64,000 nucleotides of DNA from Companilactobacillus farciminis KCTC 3681 = DSM 20184 (GTDB lineage Bacteria > Bacillota > Bacilli > Lactobacillales > Lactobacillaceae), in contig NZ_CP017702.1 in assembly GCF_002706745.1 (NCBI RefSeq), positions 930,001 to 994,000 on the forward strand, written 5' to 3'. The position numbers were made by a program, and so were the translations under genes. Positions 8,285-59,079 of the stretch are shown here, in pieces. Numbering within the stretch: the first letter of the stretch is position 1; each line of letters opens with the position of its first letter. The notes beneath the pieces were generated by a model. The model was not told the origin of the DNA, searched no databases, and saw nothing but the letters and a program-made list of their open reading frames with translations.

Positions 8285-8385
8285 AGCGACTCCTTTTAGT
8301 TATAAAATCATATTAATGTAGAAAAACTTTATCGTCAAATTGATTTTTTTCATGAAAACCAATTAGTTTTGTGTTAACCTATTAA

Positions 8386-8447
8386 AAGGTTCCTGATGGG
8401 ATCCTTTTTTATTTTAAAGGAGAAGCCCTGTAACCGAAAAGGTGGAA
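8386..8447 (+). promoter_or_regulatory. S_MK box (SAM-III) riboswitch before metK
   Basis: The leader has the S_MK core elements in order: GGTTCCTGATGGGATCC, a variable hairpin arm (TCCTTT paired with AAAGGA) and GCCCTGTAACCGAAAAGG running into the metK ribosome binding site GGTGG. In this family SAM binding pairs the Shine-Dalgarno region with an upstream anti-SD and blocks translation. The family is known upstream of metK in Lactobacillales, which matches the downstream gene. Confidence 0.85.
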
Positions 8448-8452
8448 AAGAT

Positions 8453-9646
8453 ATGTCAAAAAATTATTTATTTACTTCTGAATCAGTTTCAGAAGGACAT
8501 CCAGACAAAGTTGCTGATCAAATCAGTGATTCAATTCTCGATGCAATTTTAACAAAGGATAAAGATGCACGTGTTGCCGTTGAAACTACTGTTACAACTG
8601 GTTTAGTTCTAGTTGTTGGTGAAGTTTCTACTTCTGCATACGTTGATATTCAATCAGTTGTTCGTAAGACAATTACAGATATCGGCTATGATGGAACAAA
8701 CCCTGGTTTCAATGGTAATAGCTGTGCCGTTTTAGTAGCACTAGATGAACAATCTCCTGATATTGCTCAAGGTGTTGACGATGCCTTAGAAGAACGTGGC
8801 AACAACGATAAAGACCCATTGGATCAAATCGGTGCCGGAGATCAAGGTTTCGTATTCGGATTTGCAACTAATGAAACTAAAGAATTTATGCCTTTACCAA
8901 TCTCTCTAGCTCACAAGTTAATGAGAAAAACTGCTGAAGTTAGAAAGAACCATACTATCCCTTACTTGATGCCTGACGCTAAGTCACAAGTAACAATCGA
9001 ATATGATGAAAATGATCATCCTGTTCGCGTGGATACAATTGTTTTAAGTACTCAACACAAAGCTGAGGCTAGTTTGGAACAAGTTCAAAAAGATATCAAG
9101 AAGTATGTTATCGACGAAGTTGTTCCTGCAAACATGATGGACGACAAGACTAAGATTTTGATCAATCCTACAGGTCGTTTCGTTATTGGTGGACCAGAAG
9201 GAGATTCCGGTCTTACAGGACGTAAAGTCATCGTTGATACATACGGTGGTTTTGCACGTCACGGTGGTGGTGCCTTTTCAGGTAAAGATGCTACTAAAGT
9301 TGACCGTTCAGCAAGTTACGCTGCTAGATACATCGCTAAAAACCTTGTAGCTGCTGGCGTTGCTGAAAAAGTTGAAATCCAAATTGCTTACGCTATTGGT
9401 GTGGCAAAACCAGTGTCAATTCACGTTGATACTTTTGGTACTAGTGATTTTGACGAAGAAAAAATTGAAGAAGTTATCAATAAATTCTTCGACCTTCGTC
9501 CACTAGGAATTATTAAAATGTTGGATCTACAAAGACCAATCTATAAGAAGACGGCCGCATACGGTCACTTCGGACGTACAGATATCGATTTACCTTGGGA
9601 AAAACTTGATAAAGTTAATGATATTAAGGAATTCTTGAATATTTAA
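8453..9646 (+). CDS. metK: S-adenosylmethionine synthetase
   Basis: This 397-residue enzyme makes SAM from methionine and ATP. It shows [13 protein letters not shown] at the N-terminus, [12 protein letters not shown], and the P-loop-like [17 protein letters not shown] near residue 260. The start MSKNYLF is chosen because it follows the GGTGG site that the riboswitch sequesters; an earlier in-frame ATG at 8396 lies inside the riboswitch and is rejected. A terminator follows. Confidence 0.98.
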
Positions 9647-11869: not shown

Positions 11870-13108
11870 ATGGTTATTACACGTTATGAACGCAAACTCG
11901 AAGATAGCCGTTTGACTAGATTAAATAATAAAAAAGCTAAGAACGCAAACTTACGAAGAAATTTGACGATTCTTGGGTCAAGTATGTTCGTTGGTACCGC
12001 AGTAGCTGAAGTGGGCTTTTCGAAACCTACACCAGTTAAGGCCGAAGCGTTGTCTGTCAATAATTTGTTAAATCAAAATATTGCTGCACAAACATTGACA
12101 CCGGTTAGTTCAAAGGGAGTTGGCGATGAACAATTTATCGATTATATCGGTAATTCAGCTCGTAAATTAGCTTCTAATAATGATTTGTACGCTTCAGTGA
12201 TGATTGCCCAAGCTATGGTCGAAAGTGGCTGGGGAACTAGTGGCTTAGCTAGTGCGCCTAATTATAATCTCTTTGGAATAAAGGGCGATTATAACGGTGA
12301 ATCAGTGAATATGGGTACTCAAGAAGATGATGGATCAGGTAATTTGTATTCAATCAGTTCTAATTTCAGAAAGTATCCTTCTTACAAGGAATCTCTAGAA
12401 GACTACGTTTCATTACTTCGAGGTGGAACTAGTGGCGATTCACAAATTTATGCCGGTGCTTGGAAGAGCAATACTACATCATATAAAGATGCAACCAAGT
12501 ATTTAACAGGGCGTTATGCAACCGATACGACTTACGCTGACAAGCTCAATAGTATGATTGAAAAGTATAATTTGACTCAATTTGATGTCAATAATTCGGA
12601 TAAGGACCAAACTTATACTGTTGCTCAAGGCGATACTTTGCAATCGATTGCTGACAAATTTAATATGTCGACTGATACTTTGATGAACTTGAATGGTTTG
12701 AAGACTGATAATTATATTTATCCTGGTAAGACTTTGACTGTGACAAAGATCATTGGCAATGAAAATAATGTGGCAATGACTAATTTGTCTAATAAGACTA
12801 CAGATGATACTGGTAGTGTTGGCGATGCATACGGCGACCAACAAGCTCCAGTCTTTGTACAAGATGAACGTGATGGGGTTAAGAAGTATGTACCATCTAA
12901 CGATGATGATTCTTCTACGATCGATGTTCAAAATGATTACAGTTCAAATGATTCTGATAGTGGTAGTCAAAGTAAATCAGTAACCGTCCAAAATGGTGAT
13001 ACGATTGATTCCATTGCCACACAAGCTGGTACTTCAATCGACAACATTAAACAATTAAATAATCTAAATTCAGATTTATTGGTTGTCGGACAAACATTAT
13101 TGGTATAA
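11870..13108 (+). CDS. Secreted N-acetylglucosaminidase (GH73) with two LysM domains
   Basis: This 412-residue cell-wall hydrolase begins with a long basic leader and a hydrophobic stretch ending near PVKAEA, a probable signal peptide. The glucosaminidase domain (about residues 85-240) has AQAMVESGWGTSGLA and PNYNLFGIKGDY. LysM1 is around residues 245-295 (YTVAQGDTLQSIADKF). LysM2 is at the C-terminus (VTVQNGDTIDSIATQAG), after a Ser/Asp-rich linker. ATG 11870 follows GGGAG with good spacing; an upstream TTG at 11852 is rejected. Its end abuts the T-box leader. Confidence 0.92.
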   Translation: MVITRYERKLEDSRLTRLNNKKAKNANLRRNLTILGSSMFVGTAVAEVGFSKPTPVKAEALSVNNLLNQNIAAQTLTPVSSKGVGDEQFIDYIGNSARKLASNNDLYASVMIAQAMVESGWGTSGLASAPNYNLFGIKGDYNGESVNMGTQEDDGSGNLYSISSNFRKYPSYKESLEDYVSLLRGGTSGDSQIYAGAWKSNTTSYKDATKYLTGRYATDTTYADKLNSMIEKYNLTQFDVNNSDKDQTYTVAQGDTLQSIADKFNMSTDTLMNLNGLKTDNYIYPGKTLTVTKIIGNENNVAMTNLSNKTTDDTGSVGDAYGDQQAPVFVQDERDGVKKYVPSNDDDSSTIDVQNDYSSNDSDSGSQSKSVTVQNGDTIDSIATQAGTSIDNIKQLNNLNSDLLVVGQTLLV

Positions 13109-13116
13109 GATATAAA

Positions 13117-13349
13117 GCAACGGAAGTAGTAGATTATAAAAATACTTTTCAGAAAGCGCATGGGGATGTGAATGCGTAGGTTTTTATTTTCGAACTCATC
13201 CACTGATAATAGTTGCCGAACTTTTAGTAAGTGACTACGGTTAATCCTCGTTAAGGATTTCGAGAGTCACACGAAAGTGTGGAACTTAGGTGGTAACGCG
13301 ATAATTCGTCCTATGATTATATATTTATATAGTCATAGGACTTTTTTTA
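13117..13349 (+). promoter_or_regulatory. T-box leader of leuS (Leu, CUC specifier)
   Basis: Stem I closes with GCAAC near 13117 and GTTGC near 13212. The specifier loop reads GAA-CTC-A (CTC at 13195-13197), a leucine codon. The T-box proper AGGTGGTAACGCG is at 13288-13300. The terminator is GTCCTATGA / TCATAGGAC with seven T (13308-13349). Uncharged tRNA-Leu would stabilise the antiterminator. A likely promoter (TTGTCG, 17 bases, TAAGAT) lies in the end of the upstream gene. Confidence 0.93.
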
Positions 13350-36417: not shown

Positions 36418-37593
36418 TTAAAAATTAACGAATTTAGCTAGGTTGTTAACCGTATCTAATTGTGTTTTAGTAGAGATGTGCCAATAGACTTTCATTATCT
36501 GAGATGTATCAGAATGTCCAAGTTGAAGTTGAACAGCCTTGATACTTGATCCAGATTCAAGCATAAGCGAGCATGCTGTATGTCTGATTCCGTGGACGTT
36601 AATACGTTTCAACTCATCTTTATGAGTTTTATTGTATTCATCGATAATGAACTGTAGCCATTTGTTGATTTTAGTTAAGCTAAGTGATTTATTTTCTGTG
36701 TTGGGAAATAATAGCTGGTTAGGTTCAGTATCGATATTATATCCACGAGCAAGCATGTCTTTTCTTAGAAATGAAATCCAAGATTTAAGAATCTTCAAAG
36801 TTTGCTCATCAAGTCCAATGGTTCTAATTGAAGTCTTAGTTTTTGGCGTGTCAATGATTGGTACATTGTCAATGCCACGACTAACGGACTTATTGATTGA
36901 TAAAGTCTTATTCTTAAAATCGATATCAGAAACTTGCAAGGCTAACAATTCACCTTTACGCATTCCGGTAAAGAAAAGTACGCGAAATGCTGCAATAGCT
37001 TTCTGGTTATGATCAGAATATGTCTTATAGAGTTGGTCAAAGAATTTAGCCGTTTCTTCTTTAGTCCAAAAATTTAAGGGCTTATCATCAATCTTAGCTT
37101 TCTTCCTTGGCATAACAATTAGATCCATTGGATTCTCGAAAATGATTCTTAACCGAACTGCTTCTTTAAATACCATGCTTGCGTAGTATTTAATCATCTT
37201 AAACGATGAGAACTTTAAAGACCACTGGTTAACCGCTTCCTGACACATAGGAGTGGTTATTTTTTTTATCTCATACTTTCCCAGAGAAGGGATGATATGG
37301 TGCTTAAAAAGCCCCTCAACACGATTTAGCGTGCTTTCCTTAACCGTGTTCTTGTACGAATCAAAAAAGTAGCCATAAACATCTTTATACCTTAGATTTT
37401 CATTACTAGAATATCCGTGATTATCAATTTCTGATAATTTAGCGTTAAGAAATTTTTGACATTCGGCTTTAGTTTTAAAGCCACGTTTAGTTGTTCTCTT
37501 AACTTTGTTAGTTAATGGGTCAATGCTACCAGGGTAGACACATCTCCACAATTCTTTACCTGATTTGATTTTATATTTTGTAATTGTTGCCAT
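36418..37593 (-). CDS. int: Phage tyrosine integrase
   Basis: This 391-residue protein has an AP2-like arm-binding domain (about 1-60), a SAM-like core-binding domain and a C-terminal catalytic domain with Arg in FFTGMRKGELLAL, HGIRHTACSLML (HxxR) and the Tyr in IMKVYWHIS. GGAGG lies before the ATG. It faces the left junction, as expected for a temperate phage. Confidence 0.96.
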   Translation of the reverse strand: MATITKYKIKSGKELWRCVYPGSIDPLTNKVKRTTKRGFKTKAECQKFLNAKLSEIDNHGYSSNENLRYKDVYGYFFDSYKNTVKESTLNRVEGLFKHHIIPSLGKYEIKKITTPMCQEAVNQWSLKFSSFKMIKYYASMVFKEAVRLRIIFENPMDLIVMPRKKAKIDDKPLNFWTKEETAKFFDQLYKTYSDHNQKAIAAFRVLFFTGMRKGELLALQVSDIDFKNKTLSINKSVSRGIDNVPIIDTPKTKTSIRTIGLDEQTLKILKSWISFLRKDMLARGYNIDTEPNQLLFPNTENKSLSLTKINKWLQFIIDEYNKTHKDELKRINVHGIRHTACSLMLESGSSIKAVQLQLGHSDTSQIMKVYWHISTKTQLDTVNNLAKFVNF

Positions 37594-52271: not shown

Positions 52272-52721
52272 ATGAAACGTAAATTAGATAGTAAATATAA
52301 AGAGTTGGTCGATTATGTAACAAATCGTCAAGGAGGATTGTACTTAAGCACTATAATCGGAGATTTTATAAACGGTGATACTCTACCTAATCAAATACTA
52401 CATGATTTAATTACAGACAATTCTTCATATATAGATGAATTAGATGAGGTAGTTCAAATCATCGTAGATATCTACAACGACAATTATGAACTTAATGAAC
52501 CACTATATAGCTTTCGACTAAAAGGCGCTAAAGATTCTAATTCTCATAGTTTGTATTTAGGTGTTGGCTTAAAAAGAAGTAAATACAGTAGCTGTTGGAC
52601 AAAATATTCATACATCAGCCCAGGTGTAATGTCTATGACGGAAAAATACTTCTTAGAAAATCTACCCGAAGAAATGAGTCCCGACCAATTCGAAAAGGAA
52701 AGGGTTGATAGTGATGACTAA
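52272..52721 (+). CDS. Phage protein of unknown function
   Basis: This 149-residue protein has an acidic helical N-half and a strand-rich middle (LYLGVGLKRSKYSS). It overlaps the next gene by eight bases and has AGAGGAG upstream. Confidence 0.65.
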   Translation: MKRKLDSKYKELVDYVTNRQGGLYLSTIIGDFINGDTLPNQILHDLITDNSSYIDELDEVVQIIVDIYNDNYELNEPLYSFRLKGAKDSNSHSLYLGVGLKRSKYSSCWTKYSYISPGVMSMTEKYFLENLPEEMSPDQFEKERVDSDD

Positions 52722-53190
52722 TCCCGAATTAATCAAGCTAGTTCAGTCAATCGAACGAGACTATGGAACGGTCAACTGTAAGGAAGCTGCTAACGATTCC
52801 AGACTTAAATACATGCATAGTATGTACCCGTCCGAATCCAAACAACCAGAAGTTGCCAGGAATAAAACAAAAATGAAACAGGCTCAACACTTGCTTGATA
52901 CGCTGAACGAACCTAAATACAAAATTGCAAAAATGGTACATGTGAATTCAAATACTTTCTCACAGTTGTGCTCGAGTGGATTACTAGACGATGAACTGTG
53001 GTTAGCACACAGACAGCATAGGTTCCAATATCGCTATTATCGTGGAGATAAATTGATTGCTAAAGGCACTATTAAGCAGATTGCTAATAAAACCGGCAAA
53101 ACTGAAAGACAAATTAGATATTGTCAACTATCGACTTATAGAAAGTATGCACACGCTGAAAAATATCAATTGATCAGAGTGAGGAGTTAA
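52714..53190 (+). CDS. Phage protein with C-terminal HTH-like segment
   Basis: This 158-residue basic protein starts MTNPELIKL; the C-terminus KGTIKQIANKTGKTERQIRY resembles a helix-turn-helix. An upstream in-frame start at 52705 is rejected on spacing. It may be a regulator. Confidence 0.6.
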   Translation: MTNPELIKLVQSIERDYGTVNCKEAANDSRLKYMHSMYPSESKQPEVARNKTKMKQAQHLLDTLNEPKYKIAKMVHVNSNTFSQLCSSGLLDDELWLAHRQHRFQYRYYRGDKLIAKGTIKQIANKTGKTERQIRYCQLSTYRKYAHAEKYQLIRVRS

Positions 53191-54491: not shown

Positions 54492-54850
54492 GTTTAATAT
54501 CATCAATTTTGATTGGAGCACTTGGAGGAATTGCAACGGTTCTTTTATTAAATGCTTTTGATAATAAAAAGCATAATGTAAAAACCTCCGAAAAAAATCT
54601 CGGTAGAATTCCTAGCCGAGACGAGGCAAAGCTATCGTCGGTAGCTGTAATTAAACCAGCATTATTCATTCAAACCACGACAGACAAAGCTATATTTAGT
54701 AAAGAAGATTCGCCGTCGATTACTATCTATAAGCAGTCTGGAATTGTTGAAGTCAATACTAATAAAGAAAGTATTATTTTTAGCATGATTAATATTGAAA
54801 GAATCGACTATGATCCAGATAAATGTAATGTCTATTTTGAGGGAGAGTGA
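54488..54850 (+). CDS. Phage protein with N-terminal membrane span
   Basis: This 120-residue protein has one span (LISSILIGALGGIATVLLL) and a beta-rich soluble domain. It overlaps both neighbours by four bases. Function unknown. Confidence 0.65.
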   Translation: MSLISSILIGALGGIATVLLLNAFDNKKHNVKTSEKNLGRIPSRDEAKLSSVAVIKPALFIQTTTDKAIFSKEDSPSITIYKQSGIVEVNTNKESIIFSMINIERIDYDPDKCNVYFEGE

Positions 54851-55284
54851 GCATTATTAAATTAAGACCAGATATACGAAGCAGATGTGAAAGTATTCTT
54901 AGAGATTATCCTAGCGTTGATGGCTATATTTTAGATAGAAAACGTGAGCTTGCTTGCCAACCTCATGAGGACGATGAAAACGTTGGAGGTGGGAAGAGTT
55001 CTAAGATATCACGCCCACAAGAAACGTACGTTATTACGCTAGACCAGGATATGCGTTTAAGAATGCTAGAGAATCAGAAGAAAGTAGTGACTGACTGCTA
55101 CTTAGAAACTGACGAGGACACGAGGACTATTATTAGAGAATTGTATTTCAAGAAACATCCGACGTATACGATCAGTGGATTGTCGATTAATCAAAAAGTT
55201 AACGTGTCGATAGCAACCGCTAAACGTTTGAGAACTAGATTTTTAATTGAACTATCTGAAAAGCTAGGTATGTTTGAACCTTAA
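54847..55284 (+). CDS. Late-gene transcriptional regulator (RinA/ArpU type)
   Basis: This 145-residue protein starts at GTG (GAGGGAGA upstream). The C-terminal part (TYTISGLSINQKVNVSIATAKRLRTRFLIELSEKLG) is an HTH seen in phage late activators. Its place between the early genes and the packaging genes supports the role. Confidence 0.75.
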   Translation: MSIIKLRPDIRSRCESILRDYPSVDGYILDRKRELACQPHEDDENVGGGKSSKISRPQETYVITLDQDMRLRMLENQKKVVTDCYLETDEDTRTIIRELYFKKHPTYTISGLSINQKVNVSIATAKRLRTRFLIELSEKLGMFEP

Positions 55285-55425
55285 TGCTTTAAATTGAGCC
55301 AAACGTGAGCTTTTCGACGGTACTTTAAGAGTTAAATTAGTAGTATAGAAAGTTAGCAGGAAGTTAGCTTTCTTACCTCATAAATTAACGACGACATAAA
55401 CATACCCGGAAAATATGTTTATGGT

Positions 55426-55482
55426 GCAGGCAATCTGGCCAAGCTATTCAATAGTTTTCGAGTTCAAATCTCGATGCCTGTA
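55426..55482 (+). tRNA. tRNA-like element A (D-armless, anticodon UCA)
   Basis: Acceptor GCAGGCA pairs with TGCCTGT (one G-U), and T arm TCGAG-TTCAAAT-CTCGA is perfect. The anticodon arm AAGCT-ATTCAAT-AGTTT (55441-55457) has a 5-bp stem and a 7-base loop with U33, UCA and A37. The D arm is replaced by about 8 bases and there is no variable loop, total 57 bases. Anticodon UCA reads UGA. It may be inactive or a specialised RNA. Confidence 0.5.
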
Positions 55483-55536
55483 TACGAGAGTTAGACCACT
55501 CTCGTGAGATACACAATCCTCTGAAACAAAAAAGGT

Positions 55537-55617
55537 TGGATGGTGACTAGAGCGGTAATTAGTAGTAGAAATTAGTGTAGCGATTCTACGTCGGTGGTTC
55601 GATTCCACCTCATCCAA
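55537..55617 (+). tRNA. tRNA-like element B (expanded anticodon loop)
   Basis: Acceptor TGGATGG/TCATCCA, U8, a good D arm (ACTA-GAGCGGTAAT-TAGT with GG) and T arm GGTGG-TTCGATT-CCACC are present. The anticodon stem GTAGA/TCTAC encloses about 15 bases in place of 7, so no anticodon can be assigned safely. Total 81 bases. Confidence 0.55.
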
Positions 55618-55717
55618 GTGGCTAGCGGAAAACAGCCTAAACTAAAGGGTGTCTATACCCTTTTAAAAAACAACAACAAGCGTATGAATGAGGTAGCGAT
55701 GCTAATTCATATACTGG

Positions 55718-55785
55718 TAGCTAGTGGCGCAACGGGTAACGCTAAATATTAATGATGCTGCATGGTTCGACTCCATGCCTAGCTA
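55718..55785 (+). tRNA. tRNA-like element C (no anticodon stem)
   Basis: Acceptor TAGCTAG/CTAGCTA, U8, a perfect D arm (GCG-CAACGGGTAA-CGC) and T arm CATGG-TTCGACT-CCATG are present. The 16-17 bases where the anticodon arm should be (near 55743-55760) do not pair, and there is no variable loop. The acceptor-T stack is 13 bp by perfect pairing, one more than normal. Confidence 0.5.
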
Positions 55786-55860
55786 TTGTGGAAGTATTTC
55801 CACAGTGTATGAAATAAAAGTTTAATACTAATCGAAGTGAGGTTGTCTCCCTCACTCTGG

Positions 55861-55928
55861 TAGCGTGAATGGTTGGGAAGCTAAGAGATCATATCTCTTG
55901 CGTTCAGGTTCGAACCCTGGACACGCTA
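55861..55928 (+). tRNA. tRNA-like element D (anticodon CAT)
   Basis: Acceptor TAGCGTG/CACGCTA and T arm TCAGG-TTCGAAC-CCTGG are present, with a perfect anticodon arm AAGAG-ATCATAT-CTCTT (U33, CAU, A37). The D arm is short, with at most 2 bp. It would decode Met (or Ile AUA if modified). As in element C, the acceptor-T stack pairs through 13 bp. It is the best tRNA candidate of the set. Confidence 0.6.
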
Positions 55929-55963
55929 TATTAAAAAAAATGAACGCGTACTTAGTACGCCAC

Positions 55964-55997
55964 TAGCTGATAGATATTTAATCTATCAGCTTTTTAT
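55964..55997 (+). terminator. Terminator ending the tRNA-like array
   Basis: AGCTGATAGAT pairs with ATCTATCAGCT and is followed by a T tract. Confidence 0.88.
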
Positions 55998-56012
55998 TTT
56001 GGGGGAGAGAGT

Positions 56013-56210
56013 ATGAAAGTAATTATCGAACCTGGTAAAGTACCCGAAATATATGACGATGACGGTCAACGGATTGACGGGATAGTTAGCTTTAATTATG
56101 GCTATGTTACAAGAGATTCAAAAGACATAGGCAAGAACGAGATGAATGTGAATTACTATTCATTACAAAGAAATGTGGTAATGCACAAAGGATGGAAGTT
56201 ATATGAATAA
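56013..56210 (+). CDS. Small phage protein of unknown function
   Basis: This 65-residue protein begins MKVIIEPGKVPEIYDDDGQR. GGGGGAGAG precedes the ATG. Confidence 0.65.
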   Translation: MKVIIEPGKVPEIYDDDGQRIDGIVSFNYGYVTRDSKDIGKNEMNVNYYSLQRNVVMHKGWKLYE

Positions 56211-56319
56211 TAACAGCTCACGCTTTCTTCAACTACTCACTCTCATCCTCGTGGTGGCTAGCAGTATTAGTAATCATCAGCTTATAGATTCATCGGTTGG
56301 TAGGTTGGTATCTCATTAG
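56203..56319 (+). CDS. Possible small hydrophobic phage peptide (38 residues)
   Basis: The ORF overlaps the previous stop and reads MNNNSSRFLQLLTLILVVAS, a likely single span. Its 3' part overlaps the 5' acceptor and D region of tRNA-like element E. Confidence 0.35.
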   Translation: MNNNSSRFLQLLTLILVVASSISNHQLIDSSVGRLVSH

Positions 56320-56360
56320 TTCCCTTAGCTAAGAAAGTTGGTTCGATTCCAGCAACCGAA
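56293..56360 (+). tRNA. tRNA-like element E (anticodon unclear)
   Basis: Acceptor TCGGTT/AACCGA is 6 bp and T arm GTTGG-TTCGATT-CCAGC is present. D loop TTGGTA has the GG pair but only a 2-bp stem. The anticodon arm TTAGT/GCTAA encloses TCCCTTA, which lacks U33 and a purine at 37. It stands apart from the array, 20 bases before the next gene. Confidence 0.45.
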
Positions 56361-56380
56361 ATAGATTGGAGGTGTGTCAT

Positions 56381-56677
56381 ATGAATAGATTCCAAAAGAA
56401 ACATATCAAGGAATACCTTGATGATAATAAGATGAGCCTGGACGAAATACAACAAGCGTTCTTAGATTCGTTCACGATGAACCAGGTATCTAATGAGGAG
56501 GCTGCTGCACTGTTCGTATCACTGATTCGCAACATGATGGTGATGCCACACAATGCACAACAGTTAAAGGACTTGGGTATCGATCCTACTAAGCTAAGCA
56601 TTGATACAGCTACAGAGCTAATCAATGTGTGGGCAAAGCAGTATGTTAAGGACATGCCTAAGGATAGTGATGAGTAG
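56381..56677 (+). CDS. Small helical phage protein before HNH
   Basis: This 98-residue protein starts MNRFQKKHIKEYLDDNKMSL; GGAGGTG upstream decides the start over 56366. It lies directly before the HNH gene, where many phages carry small packaging-region genes. Function unknown. Confidence 0.65.
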   Translation: MNRFQKKHIKEYLDDNKMSLDEIQQAFLDSFTMNQVSNEEAAALFVSLIRNMMVMPHNAQQLKDLGIDPTKLSIDTATELINVWAKQYVKDMPKDSDE

Positions 56678-56679
56678 CT

Positions 56680-57009
56680 ATGAACTTAATGACTGATAGT
56701 ATGTTGCATAAGCTAAGAGACTGGATAGCTAATGATGATGTGATTAAGTTCTATCACACAAACGAATGGCGCAAGGTTAGAGCCAAGCGACTCAAGCTAG
56801 ACCACTATGAGTGCCAGGTATGCAAGGCACAAGGCAAGCATACTCATGCCACTACTGTGCACCACATCAAACACGTTAGAGACTATCCAATGCAAGCATT
56901 AAATTTAAATAATACTGAGACTATATGCAAGGTACACCATAATCAAGAACATCCAGAAAAACTGGAACAGTTTCATAAAGATAAATTTGAAAATGAAGAA
57001 CGCTGGTGA
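56680..57009 (+). CDS. HNH endonuclease
   Basis: This 109-residue protein has CQVCKAQGK (first zinc knuckle), TTVHHIKHVRDYP (catalytic HH) and NTETICKVHHNQEH (N and H). In cos phages HNH proteins next to the terminase assist DNA cutting at cos. Confidence 0.93.
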   Translation: MNLMTDSMLHKLRDWIANDDVIKFYHTNEWRKVRAKRLKLDHYECQVCKAQGKHTHATTVHHIKHVRDYPMQALNLNNTETICKVHHNQEHPEKLEQFHKDKFENEERW

Positions 57010-57122: not shown

Positions 57123-57446
57123 ATGGCAAGAAAGAAGACGATAACAGCCAAAAGCCTAAAGGAATCGCTATTAAAGCAACTTAAAACTATGGGTGCCGAT
57201 ACACCGCAATTTGAAGATTTAGTTAACGATTATGTGAGTTTTTATGAGATCAAGAACAAGCTAATTCTCGATATTGCGGCTCGTGGCGTAAGTATTGAGT
57301 GGCGAAACGGCGAGAAGTCTCATGGCTACAAGAAGAATGATTCTATTGCTGAATTAGTTAAAGTTAACGCTCAAATGCTTAAGATTCTGCAACAGTTGCA
57401 TATTGAAACGATTGAAGGCGAAGTTGAAGACGATGACGATTTCTAA
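57123..57446 (+). CDS. terS: Terminase small subunit (P27 family)
   Basis: This 107-residue protein has a central helical segment (YEIKNKLILDIAARGVSIEW...KNDSIAELVKVNAQMLKIL) typical of P27-type small terminases and an acidic end. GAGAGGGGG precedes the ATG. Confidence 0.9.
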   Translation: MARKKTITAKSLKESLLKQLKTMGADTPQFEDLVNDYVSFYEIKNKLILDIAARGVSIEWRNGEKSHGYKKNDSIAELVKVNAQMLKILQQLHIETIEGEVEDDDDF

Positions 57447-59079
57447 AGTTAAATATCATCCAGCAATTGACGAGTATATGAATGGTGTTTTATCTGGAAA
57501 AATCATCGCTTGTAAAGAACAAGTTCAATTGATGCACTTTCTAATCGATAAGTTAAATGATCCACACGCAGTCTTAAGAACTGACTTAATAGACGAGGCT
57601 TTGGAGAATATTCAAAAGCATTTCGTGTGGAAGTTGTTACCTTGGGAGAAATTCATCCTGGCATTTATCCACGGTGCTTTCTACGACGATGGCAGTTTGA
57701 TGTTTGACGAGTTCTTAGTGCTTCTTGGTCGTGGAGGTGGTAAGACTGGTTTCATGTCTGTAGAAGAGTGGCTACTAGCTAGTAAGCAAGGTATCAGAGA
57801 TTATGATATTGATATCGTGGCTACATCAGAGGAACAAGCTACTACTTCATTCAATGAGATTCACGATTTACTTGATAGTAAAGAGAAATATTATAAGAAA
57901 TACTTTCAATGGACTAAGAAATTGATTCGATACAAGAAAACTAATTCTAAAATTAGATACCGTACAAGTAATGCTAATACCAAAGATGGTGGCAGACCTG
58001 GTGCGGTATTTTTCGATGAAATTCACGCCTACAAGAACGAAGAAACTATTAACGTATTCACATCTGGATTAGGTAAGAAACCACTCCCACGGCGTTTCTA
58101 CATGACCACAGACGGATATAATCGTGAGGGCTTCTTGGATAATCTAAAAGAGGAAAGCAAGATGGTACTTGCTGGTGAAAGACCTAAACGTCGAATGTTT
58201 CCGTTTATTTGTAAGCTAGATAGTCCCGATGAATGGGAAGACGAGCAAATGTGGGAGAAGGCTAATCCATCGTTGATTTACTTTCCAAATCTAAAACATG
58301 AAATGGAATCAGAATTCGAGAAAGCTCATGATCGTGACCAGGCTCGTATCGAGTTTATGACTAAACGGATGAATATCCCAGCAACTAAAGCACAATCCCC
58401 AGTTGCTAAGTGGGAAGATATCAAGGCTACTAATCAACCCACTCCCTCACTGCTTGGTAGAAGTTGCGTAGTCGGAATTGATTTCTCGGACACAATGGAC
58501 TTTTGTGGAATTGGATTATTGTTCAAAATCGATGATAAATATTATTGGAAACATCATTCACTCATCAATTACAAAGCGTTGCAACATAGAAAGTACAAAG
58601 TTCCTTTAGATGTCGCGAAAGAACGCGGATTAATTAAAATTATCGACGATGAAACCAACCAACCTAAATATGTTGTTGACTGGATTTTAGAGCAAGCCAA
58701 AAAGTACGACATTAAAGGTGTTGCAGCCGATACTTTTAGACGTAATTACCTGGAACAGGAATTCAAAAATAACGGTTTTGATGACTTGCTACAAGCTAGA
58801 ACGGGTATCAAGACACATACAGAACTAGAGAATACCATCGATGATTTATTCGCCTATCACAAGCTCGTATATACAGACGATGATTTCATGATGCGTTGGT
58901 ACACAAATAACGTTTATAAAGATCGTGATGAGCGTGGGAATATTGAATACAAAAAAATTGAGCCTAAGTTGCGAAAGACTGATGGCTTTTTTGCTTTCCT
59001 GAATGCTTTCCAATTTAGAGAATTGCTAGATATTCCAGTTGCGACATATCACAGAACTTTGAGAACACACACTTATTAG
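57433..59079 (+). CDS. terL: Terminase large subunit
   Basis: This protein of about 548 residues has ATPase Walker A FLVLLGRGGGKTGF and Walker B GAVFFDEIHAY, then a RNase H-like nuclease domain with VVGIDFSDTMD, and Asp residues near VAADTFRR and NTIDDLFAY. It overlaps terS by 14 bases. The start MTISKVKYHP is preferred over an in-frame start 30 bases earlier. Confidence 0.95.
   Translation: MTISKVKYHPAIDEYMNGVLSGKIIACKEQVQLMHFLIDKLNDPHAVLRTDLIDEALENIQKHFVWKLLPWEKFILAFIHGAFYDDGSLMFDEFLVLLGRGGGKTGFMSVEEWLLASKQGIRDYDIDIVATSEEQATTSFNEIHDLLDSKEKYYKKYFQWTKKLIRYKKTNSKIRYRTSNANTKDGGRPGAVFFDEIHAYKNEETINVFTSGLGKKPLPRRFYMTTDGYNREGFLDNLKEESKMVLAGERPKRRMFPFICKLDSPDEWEDEQMWEKANPSLIYFPNLKHEMESEFEKAHDRDQARIEFMTKRMNIPATKAQSPVAKWEDIKATNQPTPSLLGRSCVVGIDFSDTMDFCGIGLLFKIDDKYYWKHHSLINYKALQHRKYKVPLDVAKERGLIKIIDDETNQPKYVVDWILEQAKKYDIKGVAADTFRRNYLEQEFKNNGFDDLLQARTGIKTHTELENTIDDLFAYHKLVYTDDDFMMRWYTNNVYKDRDERGNIEYKKIEPKLRKTDGFFAFLNAFQFRELLDIPVATYHRTLRTHTY

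Follow-up and report, generated by a model that had tools for sequence, protein, structure and literature searches.

Transfer RNA (tRNA)-like structures that are cut out of longer transcripts by the enzymes of tRNA maturation are known from several settings. In the portions of one report available to us, mascRNA (from MALAT1) and menRNA (from MEN-beta) are cleavage substrates of RNase P and RNase Z, PRORP cleaves a plant-mitochondrial t-element, and bacterial RNase P "tolerates extensive truncations" (PMC4919922). As for phages, the accessible part of a second source lists M3 RNA, C4 antisense RNA and T4 gene 32 mRNA as RNAs processed by RNase P (PMC11143913), and that of a third mentions, in L. 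curvatus prophages, three tRNAs of non-assignable isotype with a faulty cloverleaf prediction (PMC10688831). The present work concerns an array of tRNA-like elements, several of which depart from the cloverleaf, in a prophage of Companilactobacillus farciminis KCTC 3681 = DSM 20184. It lies in a window of 64,000 nucleotides (NZ_CP017702.1, positions 930,001 to 994,000 of the forward strand) taken from a genome that is a single contig of 2.55 Mb; coordinates count from the first base of this window, and labels beginning with L or G are our own, for loci and genomes.

Elements A to D (55426-55928) sit between the gene of a late regulator and the packaging genes, with hairpins interleaved and a terminator at the end, while a fifth tRNA-like element, E, is found past the terminator, at 56292. 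All five were detected by a scanner that looks for a 5-base-pair (bp) T-arm stem with a TTC loop and then requires the next seven bases to have a pairing partner upstream. Operated with limits that were fixed after the elements had been seen, it returned five elements in 1.1 kb of the plus strand (55285-56400), compared with a mean of 0.004 in 2000 dinucleotide shuffles, which rules out a chance origin; in addition, the stretch folds at z = -6.4 (20 shuffles only). These results and the match of the upstream gene to a PHROG regulator agree with the initial annotation, made from the sequence alone, which had placed four elements with acceptor stems and T arms between the late regulator and the packaging genes, and had the array end in a terminator, for which a stem is present at 55965-55991.

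A to E all have a 7-bp acceptor, in which one mismatch was allowed at most, together with a 5-bp T arm whose loop is of the TTCRA type. Element A (55426..55482, plus strand) has a 7-bp acceptor, a 5-bp T arm and no D stem, as had been noted from the outset; the earlier description has to be corrected in that a stem is present at the anticodon position. Specifically, A contains an 8-nt loop with GG and a 7-bp stem with a 3-nt loop at the position of the anticodon arm, abutting the T arm, and in its relatives L059 and L070 a 39-nt apical part is mounted on a 6-bp basal stem. Element B (55537..55617, plus strand) combines a perfect acceptor and T arm with a weak D arm and an anticodon stem carrying a 15-nt loop. 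Element C (55719..55785, plus strand) is made of a 6-bp acceptor, a 6-bp T stem and a 3-bp D stem, the latter with covariation, and has no anticodon arm at all, whereas D (55862..55928, plus strand) has a reduced D arm, a T arm and an intact CAU anticodon arm (5-bp stem, 7-nt loop). The large loop of B, the missing anticodon stem of C and the two arms of D are read in the sequence as the initial annotation had them. Element E (56292..56361, plus strand) resembles a tRNA-Arg(CCU). A canonical 5-bp anticodon stem with a 7-nt loop is therefore found in D, and A (3-nt loop), B (15-nt loop) and C (none) lack it.

The tRNA-finding programs reflect these departures. ARAGORN, one of the checks proposed initially, calls B, D and E but not A or C. 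Rfam reports none of A to E at gathering scores, and in a search at relaxed E-value every match remains below gathering, the tRNA-Sec match of B scoring 25.9 bits and the tRNA match of E 17 bits; the gathering score of RF00005 (29 bits) is not reached by the array elements of the window. Two identities were considered and discarded. Element A is not a transfer-messenger RNA (tmRNA): it has A3-U70 instead of G3-U70, ARAGORN finds no tmRNA in it, and its Rfam match, confined to the T arm, covers 15 nt at 8.8 bits. Nor does B appear to be an intron-bearing tRNA, since its anticodon loop measures 15, 24 or 31 nt among B-type elements, which otherwise retain the acceptor, the anticodon stem and the T arm (a judgement made from the sequence, with no dedicated intron search). 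By these tests, A, B and C belong neither with the canonical tRNAs nor with tmRNA. Only C fits the class treated below, which consists of an acceptor, a D arm, a short linker and a T arm without an anticodon arm; A, B, D and E each depart from the cloverleaf in another manner and fall outside this definition.

Selection on structure is well supported. In the C family, composed of 10 prophage sequences without an anticodon arm, 98.7% of cells are paired, compared with at most 36.7% when the partner strand is slid, and four pairs are changed on both sides: the acceptor contains two of them, the D and T stems one each. None of 500 shuffles reached the C covariation score, and none reached the number of double-changed cells. 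In a second family, found in L. plantarum-type phages (14 sequences), 99.6% of cells are paired (at most 46% in slid versions), there are two double-changed pairs, and the covariation score was reached by 10 of 500 shuffles; kinship among sequences can inflate such shuffle controls. The slid controls and the spread of the changes over three helices nevertheless indicate that the structure is real. Moreover, element C is more conserved than the DNA of the regulator gene in 20 of 21 pairs drawn from seven prophages (mean identity 88% versus 67%). Element D is identical in L059 and L065 and hence carries no covariation information. An alignment with related prophages had been among the checks suggested in the initial annotation, which was to be refuted by relatives that lack covariation (along with a lack of discrete RNAs between the hairpins) or that are unstructured at these positions; the relatives show both covariation and structure.

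The initial annotation had also credited C and D with a common 13-bp acceptor-T stack. This count included a U(-1):A73 pair that is not kept in the C relatives, where base -1 is C in one of nine sequences and base 73 is A in all 10 aligned, so that the element is better described by a stack of 12 bp and a discriminator left unpaired. In a separate family with TGATTG or TGGTTG acceptors (L139, L140, L143, L149, L169, L173 and others), positions -1 and 73 pair as G-C, A-U or G-U, which would give a 13-bp stack, and a long hairpin replaces the D arm in some members. A further proposal was that the sparing of the acceptor/T half reflects selection for processing enzymes or tRNA mimicry and not for decoding. 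Covariation in the three stems of C and the variable loop of B speak for it, and the sequence is consistent with processing or mimicry. As worded, the proposal was too narrow: the D arm or a GG loop is usually retained, which means that the tRNA elbow is spared as well, beyond the acceptor/T half, and D, with its intact CAU arm, may still decode.

Similar arrays are recurrent within the genus. The DNA of the region matched 23 of 60 searched genomes, its own included, every one in Companilactobacillus, and the regulator protein was matched in 21 of 36 genomes of the genus, its relatives being 26-97% identical (alignment A1), or 99% in G003, and lying upstream of similar arrays. Thirty-nine regions were scanned, 11 of them chosen by array similarity; counting only those picked by the regulator, 22 of 28 loci contain at least one non-canonical element downstream of it (scanner plus anticodon-arm test), three of the 22 (L062, L075 and L080) owing their place to a TGGGATG element, which in L005 and L022 is a tRNA-Arg by ARAGORN. 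Two of the other six loci (L071 and L073) score zero by the scanner, yet on reading show elements with a changed T arm. In arrays of several types an A-type element usually comes first; some prophages then have true tRNAs (Gln TTG, Asn GTT, Thr TGT, Tyr GTA), and C-type elements, elements with an AGTGTG acceptor and a terminator follow in this order. The AGTGTG elements are of two kinds, those with an anticodon loop of 6 nt and those whose linker includes ATACTAGT. The largest array (L067) reaches seven elements, tRNAs included, and elements related to E occur in L067 and L080. Among 12 hand-picked A-type sequences, all have GG in the loop before the long stem, and the arm stem beats shuffles at 0.05 or less in six (worst value, 0.21). 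A second prophage of the same genome (G000:C1:893000-898600, L085) has an array of its own, with a 110-nt A-type element, a C-type element, another odd element and a tRNA with a CAU anticodon.

The association with the regulator extends to phages beyond the genus. From 213 viral loci picked by the regulator protein, the best 80 were taken, and 46 of these have at least one element within 3 kb downstream of the regulator; together they contain 72 elements (true tRNAs included) versus 1.2 in shuffles by two-base blocks (five per locus), several of these viral contigs being Companilactobacillus prophages again. Two families are purely anticodon-arm-less, one of 58 nt in L. brevis-type phages and one of 60 nt in L. 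plantarum-type phages, and armless elements of these types pass the Rfam tRNA cut-off with 41-48 bits (L137, L140, L149, L159, L202 and L203). In named phages, an unannotated element lies 82 nt past the 'putative transcription regulator' of LBR48 and another 96 nt past RinA in Sha1; in 3-SAC12 the element follows a 'DNA binding protein' and is annotated as a pseudo tRNA-OTHER, and that of phiJL-1 (36458-36516) comes after small hypothetical genes. A distant blastn search with the whole region against named phages gave no match. Two further features were seen in the L. brevis phage 3-SAC12: a 'tRNA-OTHER' (L202:2620-2688) with a 4-nt loop on an anticodon stem of 5 bp, adjoining an armless element and a tRNA-Met, and a second armless element at L202:4064-4120.

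The armless design is found more widely in viral contigs. A first pattern, requiring a D arm with a T arm abnormally close behind it (gap of 7-16), matched at least 119 stretches, and a stricter one (gap of 8-14) matched 118, compared with none when the T arm was reversed, a control that rules out chance as the source of this class. A full 7-bp acceptor is present in 58 of 96 unique sequences from the loci numbered L205 and higher, and at least six pairs in 71, these sets including L326 and L327, which do not come from the viral contigs. The gap is 11-12 in 42 of the 58, and among the matches listed (patterns up to gap 16-22 pooled) full acceptors peak at 11-12 and again at 22. The linker ends in C in 44 of the 58, in GTC in 25 and in GGTC in 12, too few for GGTC to be considered a kept linker end; the variable loop of ordinary tRNAs often ends likewise. 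With gaps of 17-22, 20 of 34 unique full-acceptor sequences among the matches listed have as anticodon arm a hairpin with a 3- or 4-nt loop, and this short capped hairpin is a second way of losing the anticodon. Phage tRNAs capped by a tri- or tetraloop, without an anticodon loop, are seen for instance in L329, L336, L344, L422 and L436.

Not all of these elements follow a late regulator; in other phages lone armless elements are flanked by co-directional genes. One lies between the major head and tail genes (PHROG) in L225, with the same element and open reading frame (ORF) lengths in L226 and L308; another between the genes for a single-stranded DNA-binding protein (SSB) and DNA polymerase in L214; a third before the small terminase in L303; and in Polaribacter phage Danklef_1 an element annotated as Undet precedes the small terminase gene by 1.8 kb. 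Counted over 69 unique elements, 48 are without a canonical tRNA within 1 kb. One large phage (L234, an IMGVR contig of 180 kb) has three elements that lack the anticodon arm and whose acceptors are related. When 395 Lactobacillales genomes were scanned with the first pattern, three matches resulted, and the only one with a full acceptor belongs to a prophage, where a transcriptional activator precedes it and HNH and terminase genes follow; since this pattern misses the elements of the window itself (none in G000), it provides no count of the class in bacteria.

The elements share features of RNAs excised by RNase P and RNase Z, namely an acceptor-T stack, a U after the discriminator and a CCA that is not encoded, B being partly excepted. 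A T at +74, directly after the discriminator, was found in 20.0 of 21 families (family-weighted; families were hand-defined by their first letters, and the TGATTG/TGGTTG family is excluded, as are the elements of L155 and L180/L181); B departs from this, the next base being G in four of five sequences. CCA is encoded in two of 156 rows. The hairpins after A, B and C begin 0-2 nt past the discriminator, and in 129 rows, canonical tRNAs and related sequences included, 39 have a hairpin 0-3 nt past it, against 8.6 expected from mononucleotide shuffles (the rows derive from 166 sequences, coding-like or chance-like ones having been dropped by hand). Within the same 21 families, such flush hairpins are present in 18 of 20 A- and B-type elements. 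The alternation of elements and hairpins claimed initially is thus real in this array, and in relatives the flush hairpins occur mainly at A- and B-type elements.

The beginning of the transcript may also be marked. A putative late promoter core, ACTTTAAGAGTTAAATTAGTAGTATAGA (55322..55349, plus strand), lies between the regulator and element A. Read by eye, TAAATTAGTA occurs in the stretch that separates the regulator from the first element in 15 of 21 Companilactobacillus rows, the window included, four others showing a variant and two (L067 and L090) nothing clear, and a TAAATTGRTA core occupies the same place in all seven rows of other phages, ending about 18 nt upstream of the element in L. 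brevis-type phages. A sigma-70 scan gave no consensus match at the proposed promoter; on the strength of its recurrence in the sequences, the core is taken as a putative late promoter. A leader hairpin, GAAAGTTAGC-AGGAA-GTTAGCTTTC, follows at 55348..55372 (plus strand), in a block (55324-55395) with matches in other prophages, and a perfect 10-bp hairpin (55395..55423, plus strand) ends 2 nt before A.

The remaining hairpins, on the plus strand unless stated, were read in the sequence. Directly after the discriminator of A stands a 9-bp stem (55483..55506) with the loop TAGACC, which is retained despite altered stems in L002, L003 and L004. A 4-bp hairpin begins 2 nt after B (55620..55637); its stem is too short for the cut-off of the hairpin survey, and relatives retain the GCGGAAAA loop with altered stems. 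The spacer between B and C includes a second hairpin (55644..55663, also seen by folding) and one before C (55681..55714), with the inner part GGTAGCGATGCTA, for which L068 and L073 provide relatives. The hairpin directly after the discriminator of C (55786..55805) recurs in only one of nine C-type relatives, and AGTGAGG / CCTCACT form one before D (55836..55856). After D, GCGTAC-TTA-GTACGC (55946..55960, unstranded) is terminator-like on the minus strand, and the array is closed by an intrinsic terminator (55965..55998) whose stem is followed by a T run; a similar sequence lies behind the arrays of L068, L073 and L074.

How could these observations be integrated? Our preferred explanation, held tentatively and with a confidence that stops just short of calling it probable, is that the array belongs to the late region, is non-coding and consists of tRNA-like elements, most of them non-decoding, that would be excised by host RNase P and RNase Z. 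A late promoter beside the regulator would start an RNA whose first parts are the tRNA-like elements. These would retain the determinants for the end-processing enzymes, that is, the 12-bp acceptor-T stack, the T loop, usually the GG elbow loop, and the discriminator with the following U, while decoding would not be selected, and hence the anticodon arm could be lost, replaced or enlarged. The host enzymes would then cut the elements out, and the hairpins flush with the cuts (here at A, B and C, elsewhere mainly at A- and B-type elements) would protect the ends of the intervening and trailing RNA, the elements acting as cut-out punctuation in the manner of plant-mitochondrial t-elements or mascRNA. 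Structure, conservation, covariation, position, U74 and, in part of the families, abutting hairpins are thus the sequence-level observations from which we infer promoter activity, cleavage, end protection and a benefit to the phage.

Several points weigh against this explanation. Its support is drawn from sequence, and transcription and cleavage are deduced from it. Punctuation need not be repeated in a four-element array without intervening genes, so it may be the released RNAs that matter, and the terminator between the array and the packaging genes means that processing of the late mRNA would require read-through. Flush hairpins occur in only seven of 61 elements outside the A- and B-type families, by which they were discarded as a general feature of the elements. 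RNase P often favours U(-1), which is not universal among the elements, and canonical tRNAs are expected to share U74, so that this base denotes competence for processing and no purpose. Gene calls around the environmental elements were naive; by these calls, 27 of the 69 unique elements are flanked by co-directional ORFs and 10 run into a predicted ORF. With regard to selection, the count of double-changed pairs taken alone was reached by 78 of 500 shuffles in the C family and by 55 of 500 in the L. plantarum-type family; the other covariation measures are stronger than this count.

The material released might act in trans instead, with processed RNAs mimicking the elbow and acceptor and occupying a host factor, such as RNase P, RNase Z, the CCA-adding enzyme, EF-Tu or tRNA modifiers, or else a tRNA-attacking defence or toxin, in which case loss of the anticodon would avoid translation. 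This seems unlikely, albeit worth serious attention: the shape stays constant while acceptor and T sequences vary between families, arrays reach the seven elements of L067, and most environmental elements (the 48 of 69 mentioned above) stand alone, but lone elements among structural or replication genes fit processing in cis equally well, a decoy would require tRNA-like abundance, and no result points to a target. A role as tRNA-scaffolded regulatory RNAs, whose linker or enlarged arm at the anticodon position would pair with host or phage RNA, receives little credence from us. Within a family the linker is conserved (most C sequences have AATGATG or GATGATG, an AGTGTG family ATACTAGT); between families it varies, and the loop of B changes freely in length. 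That the elements are odd yet functional decoding tRNAs, for example D as an Ile2 or Met(CAU) tRNA, is very improbable for the set, given that A and C have no anticodon, the loop of B is so variable and none attains an Rfam gathering score; what speaks for it are the ARAGORN calls of B, D and E and the 5-bp CAU arm with its 7-nt loop in D.

Armless forms can derive from tRNAs, as indicated by Streptococcus phage Javan565, in which an intact tRNA-Phe(GAA), situated between the large terminase and portal genes, has a T/acceptor half and upstream sequence nearly equal to those of the armless L303 element. In phiJH1301-1 an L303-like T/acceptor half stands between a phrog_36 regulator and the small terminase, its 5' half looking decayed and without a good acceptor, which also counts against the preferred explanation: some such elements do decay. 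(The three streptococcal phages L303, L507 and L508 thus have a common T/acceptor half in three states: armless, within an intact tRNA-Phe and more decayed.) These cases, together with the intact Gln, Asn, Thr and Tyr tRNAs of the same arrays, are what would be expected if the elements were degenerating phage tRNAs that lose parts by deletion and drift. As a general account we consider this improbable. Decay should favour no particular half, gap length or place, and the elements show pair-restoring double changes, a C element better conserved than the neighbouring gene, a preferred gap of 11-12, a common locus in several phage lineages and a retained U74.

Beyond excision from this array, it is conceivable, without our going so far as to call it likely, that tailed phages generally carry purpose-built non-decoding tRNAs in which the anticodon arm has been removed or capped by a tri- or tetraloop while elbow and acceptor are kept, and by which host maturation enzymes would be made to cut phage transcripts at chosen points, or would be engaged. 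The base before the T stem (the C48 position) remains C in 44 of the 58 full-acceptor sequences. If this were true, the arrays of lactobacilli would be the most elaborate form, cut by RNase P and RNase Z and releasing hairpin RNAs. Engineered guide-RNA arrays spaced by tRNAs exist, and the phage arrays would be their natural counterpart. Phage tRNAs are usually explained by codon supply, and a recurrent codon-blind class, situated at late promoters or between phage genes, would need another reason, be it RNA processing, control of transcript ends or tRNA mimicry. Some 'undetermined' or 'pseudo' tRNAs of phage annotations would then make sense, tRNA-finding programs would gain a new shape to search for, and the class could be tested in L. 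brevis phages LBR48 and 3-SAC12, L. plantarum phage phiJL-1, Lactobacillus phage Sha1 and Polaribacter phage Danklef.

As for the setting, the right part of the window is a prophage with an integrase (36418-37593, identity judged from the sequence), replication genes, the regulator, the array, an HNH endonuclease (56680..57009) and the small (57123..57446) and large (57403..59079) terminase subunits, the last three on the plus strand. The late regulator (54847..55284, plus strand) was matched by hmmscan to PHROG phrog_36 'transcriptional regulator' and to the Alt-like activator phrog_2198. Upstream, a small gene at 52705-53190 has a weak match (E 4e-8) to PHROG 803 'host nuclease inhibitor'. 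Outside this setting, the window contains an ordinary T-box leader (13107-13316) before a leucyl-tRNA synthetase-like gene and a SAM-III riboswitch (8377-8455) before an S-adenosylmethionine synthetase-like gene, both gene names being judged from the sequence.

The array can finally be compared with the known systems. The tRNA-like domain of tmRNA lacks a D stem, has a helix where the anticodon arm would be, and contains an acceptor, a T arm and a G3-U70 pair; element A resembles it in layout and differs by its A-U third acceptor pair. GOLLD, a large RNA of lactobacilli prophages that is located near tRNAs, shares the setting of the array, being a non-coding RNA of lactobacilli phages near tRNAs, and gave no match at gathering score in the window or in the 12 loci searched. 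The non-assignable tRNAs of L. curvatus prophages may be of like kind, judging by their description in the part of the source available, and the 'tRNA-OTHER' of 3-SAC12 and the 'Undet' of Danklef coincide with such elements, the records giving the annotation without analysis. M3, C4 and T4 gene 32 RNAs are, in the part of the report we could consult, phage-encoded RNase P substrates other than tRNAs, a likeness of description and not of compared sequences; we know of no array or late-promoter position for them. Our literature search, which covered subscription papers and bioRxiv in part, found no description of phage tRNA-like elements without an anticodon arm. Closest in kind are mascRNA, menRNA and the t-elements, which, as far as the available text describes them, are like the phage elements tRNA-like structures within longer RNAs. 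They are eukaryotic or organellar, whereas the phage elements, whose cleavage is deduced, are arrayed or lone and combine D and T loops with the absence of an anticodon arm; on the sequence evidence, the latter would represent a phage form, with the decoding end missing, of the tRNA-like elements that are cut by tRNA enzymes.
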